Shown here in pieces: positions 53,858 through 56,374 of a stretch of 60,433 nucleotides of DNA. A model generated the notes under the pieces. The model had not been told where the DNA came from and did no database searches. It saw only the letters and a program-made list of their open reading frames with translations. The DNA is from Pseudomonadales bacterium. Lineage in GTDB: Bacteria > Pseudomonadota > Gammaproteobacteria > Pseudomonadales > Azotimanducaceae. The stretch is from assembly GCA_019090385.1 (NCBI GenBank), contig JAHRWB010000153.1, forward strand, positions 1-60,433. The letters are read 5' to 3'. Within the stretch, counting starts at the first letter, position 1. Each line of letters begins with the position of its first letter. A program made the position numbers and the translations under genes.

Positions 53858-54349
53858 CTAAAACCCTGTAGATTTGCTGCTACGGCGCAACACCAGATAA
53901 ACCAATGGCCAAACCAGAGCACTGGCCATGGCAACCCACAGGAATGTCATATGAAAATCCGCATTCAGGAACTGCATCCAAAGTAACATTTTCAACAGCT
54001 CGATGCACAATACTGCTCCAAATACAAAAACTGCCTGCTGAACTACCGCGTACATCCGAAGTCGTTCGTATATAGACCAGGTAACAAAAGTAAGTGCTGC
54101 CAGACAAAATGCATTAACACCCATGGGCTCACCCAACAATACATCCAAGCACAGACCCAACAACCACGCCCTGACCATGCCAACTCGATGGGGTAATTCC
54201 ATCACCCAATAGAGCATGACCAATACAACCCAGGATGGACGGAACCAGGCAAGCCAGTCGGGCGACCACTCGGGTAAGTGAAAGACCGCCAGTATCATAG
54301 CCACAAACAGACTCAACATAATGGTAATGGTGCCTGTTTCTGAACTCAC
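53858..54349 (-). CDS. mreD: Rod shape-determining protein MreD
   Basis: MreD is a membrane subunit of the elongasome. The 163-residue protein is almost entirely hydrophobic, with five to six membrane segments and the LGLCLDVLLGEPMGVNAFCL motif near 64-83 that marks the family. Its start overlaps the mreC stop as ATGA. Confidence 0.94.
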   Translation of the reverse strand: MSSETGTITIMLSLFVAMILAVFHLPEWSPDWLAWFRPSWVVLVMLYWVMELPHRVGMVRAWLLGLCLDVLLGEPMGVNAFCLAALTFVTWSIYERLRMYAVVQQAVFVFGAVLCIELLKMLLWMQFLNADFHMTFLWVAMASALVWPLVYLVLRRSSKSTGF

Positions 54350-55182
54350 TGTGTTAGACCGGGCAGTTCAGAAAAAACCAACAAAACGTGACGGCTACGA
54401 TCCAGTGCAGCGGAAGGTTTAGCCTCGATGTAGGCAAAACTCTGGGTTTCATCAACGACAACAGAGGTAACCAACCCAACCGGGTAACCGCGTGGGAATC
54501 TACCTCCCAAACCAGAACTTACCAGCAAATCCCCCGGCAGTATGTCCGCTGTAATGGGCACATACTCAAGCTCAATAACATCCTTGCGACCCGTACCAGC
54601 CGCTACCATTCGCAAATCAGTTCTGTTGACCTGCACAGGCACCGCATGGGATGGATCGGATATTTGCAATACTCGGCTTGTCGAAGCACTGATTTCAACA
54701 ACCTGCCCAAACAGTCCATGGGCATCAACCACTGCCTGACCGACGTAGACCCCATGCTGCTCGCCCTTATCCAGCACAACTTCATGACGCGAGGGCGATG
54801 GCAGAACACCGATTATTTCAGCGATCAAAACCTCAGTATTTACCTGCTCCTGGCTACCCAGCAAGCTTCTCAAGCGGGCATTTTCTTCCCGCAAACTAAT
54901 AAACTGCTGGGTTATTTGTGACAATTCCAACAAGCGGCGGCGCATGCGCATATTTTCTTCATTCAGGGTATTGCGTGACGCAATGGACTCAGACGCTTTT
55001 CCAGAAAAATAATAGGGTAACTCTGCAACAGTGTAGACTGGCACCACGATCGTCGCCAGCAACTTGCGCAAGGGCTCCAACGAAGCCGTATAAGATTCTA
55101 TGGCGAATACCAGGGAAGAAATAACCAGCAACGCAATCAACAGATAACCGGCACCAGATTCTCTGACAAAAAGCGTCTTAAT
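54346..55182 (-). CDS. mreC: Rod shape-determining protein MreC, apparent ATT start
   Basis: MreC is the periplasmic scaffold of the elongasome that activates PBP2-RodA. The frame opens after an in-frame TGA. The first codons, ATT AAG ACG CTT TTT GTC, encode (I/M)KTLFVRESG, which matches the family N terminus (MKPLF.RG), and AGAAGGAG lies nine bases before the ATT. No ATG, GTG or TTG occurs until a TTG 14 codons later, which would cut into the membrane helix. I therefore annotate ATT at 55182 (278 residues). A membrane segment (about 13-30), a coiled coil and the beta-barrel MreC domain follow. Confidence 0.85.
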   Translation of the reverse strand: MKTLFVRESGAGYLLIALLVISSLVFAIESYTASLEPLRKLLATIVVPVYTVAELPYYFSGKASESIASRNTLNEENMRMRRRLLELSQITQQFISLREENARLRSLLGSQEQVNTEVLIAEIIGVLPSPSRHEVVLDKGEQHGVYVGQAVVDAHGLFGQVVEISASTSRVLQISDPSHAVPVQVNRTDLRMVAAGTGRKDVIELEYVPITADILPGDLLVSSGLGGRFPRGYPVGLVTSVVVDETQSFAYIEAKPSAALDRSRHVLLVFSELPGLTQ

Positions 55183-55223
55183 TTTTCAGTACTCCTTCTA
55201 GGTGTACCAATTATACCGTCAAA

Positions 55224-55326
55224 TAAACAGCCCTGAGCGGGTCTTGGTAAACAGCCCTGAGCAACCCTTGGTAAACCAGCCCTGAGCGGCTCTTTATAAA
55301 CAGCCCTGAGCAACCCTTGGTAAACA
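55224..55326 (+). repeat. Repeat array C (core TAAACAGCCCTGAGC), between mreC and mreB
   Basis: Copies start at 55224, 55248, 55272 (with one extra C) and 55297, plus a truncated TAAACA at 55321-55326 that ends one base before the mreB stop triplet. Period is 24-25 bp; spacers GGGTCTTGG, AACCCTTGG and GGCTCTTTA differ from arrays A and B. The array would be transcribed within the mreBCD message, ahead of the mreC ribosome site. Confidence 0.93.
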
Positions 55327-55327
55327 A

Positions 55328-56374
<1,047 letters not shown>

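Follow-up and report, generated by a model that had tools for sequence, protein, structure and literature searches.

Where does translation of mreC begin in the window (the whole 60,433-nt stretch of DNA that was analysed), and what would a weak start mean for the amount of its product? The gene occupies 54346–55182 on the minus strand and reads from an ATT codon to a TGA stop over 278 codons. Its product was identified as MreC by its translation and by the TIGR00219 profile (202 bits against a curated cut-off of 92.75). The gene sits between mreB (55328–56371, ATG start), which lies upstream in the same operon, and mreD (53858–54349), whose GTG start overlaps the mreC stop as GTGA. Both neighbours, on the same strand, were named from translation and gene order, and the mreB aligns with that of E. 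coli at 68.6% DNA identity. The mreC frame runs TGA AAA ATT AAG ACG CTT TTT, with a single AAA codon between the in-frame TGA (55186–55188) and the ATT (55180–55182). A Shine-Dalgarno sequence, AGAAGGAG (55192–55199), is spaced 9 nt from the ATT and pairs with the anti-Shine-Dalgarno at a duplex energy of -8.3 kcal/mol. A preliminary description of this DNA had already placed the TGA two codons and AGAAGGAG nine bases before the ATT, and both positions are confirmed on the minus strand. No ATG, GTG or TTG occurs in the window's mreC from the in-frame TGA down to codon 15 counted from the ATT, which is a TTG (55138–55140) and the first canonical codon downstream. The RNA around the window's mreC start shows no unusual folding (z -0.99; 29 of 200 shuffled sequences fold equally well). 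In the gap between mreB and mreC, a 49-nt repeat containing AAACAGCCCTGAGC-like units occurs twice in tandem at 55225–55322, its copies being 92% alike; no tie between this repeat and the mreC start could be made.

The homologous codon was compared across related genomes. A single-protein scan of genome contigs gave no relative, whereas an alignment scan did; only its best 80 of 568 matches were kept as named loci, which hence lean toward the near relatives of the window. To a first 30 family loci were added 80 further family loci, order loci, class loci and these 80 named loci, with family loci fetched from 110 of the 144 genomes that had a match. Among the 367 loci of the main count, 14 were dropped because no profile match reached the N-terminal part and 29 because no [LIVMQ]F motif lay near the expected place. 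The remaining 324 were reduced to 285 by removing short flanks and duplicates, named records frequently being the same contigs as other records, and to 280 distinct gammaproteobacterial contexts by removing five from outside the class. The profile that served to place position 1 was built mostly from rows with Ile at this position, and the motif that fixes position 1 does not use position 1 itself. No K-x-L-F motif was seen in those mreC loci that were read from outside the class, so the start codon is not comparable there.

The codon is ATC in 106, ATT in 93 and ATA in 18 of the 280 contexts, giving 217 in this class, against 30 with ATG, 7 with GTG and 26 unresolved. A genome of the same genus (G001) has ATC, with a TAG two codons upstream. 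The class accounts for 27 of the first 30 family loci (GTG 2, ATG 1), for 71 of the named loci taken as the best 80 of 568 (GTG 4, ATG 1, other 4) and for 76 of the 102 contexts from the window's own family. Within the order, 35 of the 42 families scored contain at least one mreC with ATT, ATC or ATA; elsewhere in the class 32 of the 51 families scored do, the remaining 19 comprising 8 with ATG, 1 with GTG and 10 unresolved. ATT or ATC is present in Pseudomonas, Halopseudomonas, Stutzerimonas, Haliea, Halioglobus, Pseudohalioglobus, Seongchinamella, Porticoccus, Zhongshania, Gilvimarinus, Endozoicomonas and Zooshikella; the codon of Pokkaliibacter is GTG. A quick FastTree phylogeny of 155 MreC proteins, 150 of them labelled, requires at least nine changes between the ATT/ATC/ATA class and ATG or GTG. 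This comparison had been proposed as a check in the preliminary description, whose reading of ATT as the mreC start it strongly supports; the codon was also taken there for a peculiarity of one gene, and that part does not stand. As judged from the aligned genomes, mreC keeps an ATT, ATC or ATA start across the majority of the gammaproteobacterial families sampled, Pseudomonas included.

Several features suggest that the conserved codon is read as a start. Across the 254 resolved contexts, the only alternatives to ATT, ATC and ATA are ATG and GTG, and none has GTA, GTC, GTT or CTN at position 1; the internal position 4 differs, with mostly Leu and Ile from many codons. In 193 of the 217 contexts of the class no ATG, GTG or TTG lies between the upstream stop and the codon. 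The stop lies at -2 in 19 contexts and in another 9 at -3; none of these 28 has a start codon in the gap. A Shine-Dalgarno stands at a distance typical of starts, and its energy averages -7.28 kcal/mol before ATT, ATC or ATA (86% at or below -4.5), compared with -3.21 kcal/mol (30%) in a control window 60–82 nt upstream, -4.93 kcal/mol (53%) before ATG and -3.74 kcal/mol (43%) before GTG. The rank test of the class against ATG and GTG together gives p 1.5e-7, a value that ignores relatedness and is thus overstated. The mreB of the same group starts with ATG in all 129 readable loci, 88 further loci not being readable. Like infC and sigR, the window's mreC combines a noncanonical start without a nearby canonical in-frame alternative with a weak codon kept in relatives. 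We therefore regard it as highly probable, with strong support from the cross-genome comparison, that mreC in the window starts at a genuine ATT.

How such a start may act is suggested by genes of the same type. The initiator tRNA would read the AUU as fMet to give M-K-T-L-F, the strong Shine-Dalgarno would recruit the 30S subunit, and the mismatched codon would let IF3 reject part of the initiation complexes. The synthesis of MreC would thereby be restrained relative to MreB from the same operon and, where mreD overlaps the mreC stop, that of MreD too. The mreC stop overlaps an NTG, as in the window, in 64 of 137 loci, from which it would follow that a restrained mreC start holds MreC, and often MreD, below MreB. 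The distance from the end of mreB to the start of mreC has a median of 76 nt over 145 loci and is below 20 nt in 7, where translational coupling between the two genes is possible. Excess MreC is reported (PMC7793260) to make E. coli shorter and wider, an effect that MreD partly suppresses. By analogy with infC and sigR and in view of this deformation, IF3 sensitivity and a role in the MreC:MreB ratio, both put forward in the preliminary description, are plausible; we infer fMet decoding, IF3 discrimination and the effect on protein ratios, and put an IF3-linked dosage role for the mreC start at slightly better than even. The account as a whole, in which a genuine, conserved AUU/AUC/AUA start would be discriminated against by IF3 and restrain MreC, and often MreD, relative to MreB, appears to us moderately likely.

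The infC and sigR genes both have noncanonical starts repressed by IF3, as described in PMC5472188, with infC starting at ATT in E. coli and at ATC in Streptomyces. The infC of the window's genome (locus L374) likewise starts with ATT, two codons after a TAG, and ATT or ATC stands at the likely start in 10 of 11 infC loci judged by eye (12 genomes searched, one locus per matching genome). The likeness to mreC lies in the noncanonical start, the repression by IF3 being demonstrated for infC. Unlike mreC, infC is autoregulated; since MreC does not act as an initiation factor, its gene would form no closed feedback loop, and any IF3 effect through mreC would act on cell-wall growth. In the sigR of Streptomyces, as in mreC, a strong ribosome binding site precedes a weak start codon; a further likeness is that the annotated start of sigR was wrong. 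In the sigR-rsrA operon, IF3 repression of this weak start sets the ratio to the operon partner, according to PMC5472188; the corresponding role of mreC is proposed by analogy. Of 34 Streptomyces, 32 begin sigR with GTC and 2 with GTT, and the start is experimentally proven there, whereas the mreC start extends as ATT, ATC or ATA over much of a class and is predicted from sequence. The pcnB of E. coli has an AUU start in common with mreC, and in pcnB this start limits the amount of protein.

A different reading accepts the weak start as real and holds that it merely sets a low, constant level of MreC, with no regulatory part for the IF3 level and with the codon kept by history or by compensation from the strong Shine-Dalgarno. 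The stronger Shine-Dalgarno of the ATT/ATC/ATA group compared with the ATG group fits this reading, and so does the mreC of E. coli: the one record used has ATG and, at -3.0 kcal/mol, a weak Shine-Dalgarno, as though overall strength stayed within a range. Against it, the class is kept over many families, with only at least nine changes on the tree, although one base change would give ATG, and all noncanonical codons are expected to be sensitive to IF3, which is established knowledge (PMC5472188). We consider a constant level without regulation possible, though somewhat improbable. The E. coli gene has the same operon place and the N-terminal motif M-K-P-I-F, and differs in its ATG and weak Shine-Dalgarno. 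ATG is also found in four class genomes (L291–L294), one of which (L292) has a Shine-Dalgarno of -5.9 kcal/mol, so that a weak Shine-Dalgarno is not general among ATG lineages. Together with E. coli and these four, the 8 of 51 class families with ATG only indicate that the weak mreC start is dispensable. In a bolder extension, IF3 activity would set, through the conserved AUU/AUC/AUA start, the level of MreC in most Gammaproteobacteria, and that of MreD where its start overlaps the mreC stop. Cell elongation would then depend directly on how translation initiation stands (growth rate, cold shock), and E. coli and its relatives would have exchanged this link for an ATG start, which in E. coli is paired with a weak Shine-Dalgarno; this broader idea is speculative and rather unlikely.

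Translation could otherwise begin at an internal TTG, GTG or ATG, such as the TTG at codon 15 in the window or a GTG at codon 17 in P. aeruginosa, with the stretch before it conserved but untranslated. Ordinary ORF calling, restricted to ATG, GTG and TTG, does begin at this TTG, and the published P. aeruginosa numbering fits a start 16 residues downstream. However, the first downstream canonical codon falls anywhere from codon 3 to codon 68, and its commonest place, codon 15, is found in only 50 of the 217 contexts; the internal TTG was rejected as the mreC start on this lack of conserved position. The best 19-residue hydrophobic stretch of the window's MreC spans residues 10–28, so a start at codon 15 would cut the membrane segment, and the K-x-L-F tail ahead of the internal codon is conserved as protein and lies behind the Shine-Dalgarno. 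An internal start is thus very improbable. Equally improbable is that the codon is an internal Ile, translation having begun before it at an unusual start or by readthrough of a stop codon: a canonical in-frame codon does lie upstream in 24 of 217 loci (within 10 codons in 12), but the stop two codons upstream in the window, the stops at -2 or -3 in relatives and the replacement by ATG and GTG instead of Val or Leu codons in general led us to reject it. A sequencing error at the ATT is ruled out by the same codon class in independent assemblies.

The start at ATT, ATC or ATA also bears on published MreC numbering in Pseudomonas. All 25 genomes of the genus were matched and 12 loci were read, giving ATC in 11 and ATA in 1, with a canonical codon further upstream in 2 of the 12. 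Over the solved domain (PDB chain 6zlv, 175 residues), the MreC of one genome of the genus (G386, locus L356) shows 100% identity; by the account that PMC8137920 gives of its structures, this chain comes from P. aeruginosa. The mreC of G386 starts with ATC, directly preceded by a second ATC; a TAG lies four codons before the start, and the stretch between them holds no canonical codon. The residues P114, F115, R175, E188 and R190 named in PMC8137920 fit G386 only at offset 16 among offsets from -30 to 59, so residue 1 of that paper would correspond to codon 17 of the gene, a GTG. The paper assigns both the cytoplasmic part and the membrane segment to the first 14 residues, which is short for a membrane helix. 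The annotated P. aeruginosa MreC thus appears to lack 16 residues through truncation by annotation, and the printed numbering would omit them, the short cytoplasmic tail included. One misfit is that the construct in PMC8137920 runs to residue 330 and G386 gives 328 from codon 17, which may be explained by strain variation in the tail.

The weak start probably limits the amount of the dose-sensitive MreC and causes the misannotation of its beginning, and it explains the loss of the MreC N terminus in gene calling. To our knowledge, noncanonical starts have been demonstrated in only a small number of bacterial genes, and their retention over long times is rarer still. A literature search of open-access papers found no report joining mreC with such a start. 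With a weak start in the majority of the sampled families of a class, a core elongasome gene would rank beside infC in reach, and through the mreC start a connection of cell shape with the fidelity of initiation can be tested directly.

The 26 unresolved contexts are heterogeneous. In six, an ATG or GTG directly precedes the homologous codon (L155, L279, L282, L303, L324, L332), four show an ATC or ATT shifted upstream by one or two codons (L239, L264, L271, L283), and nine fit nothing simple. The other seven, from genera g33 and g7, carry GGG (L039, L040, L043, L046, L081) or TCC (L041, L044) at the homologous codon and have no convincing alternative start; a TTG lies three codons upstream in 4 of them. 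One genome of the family also contains a second, weak mreC-like match (G063:C49:598-1290).
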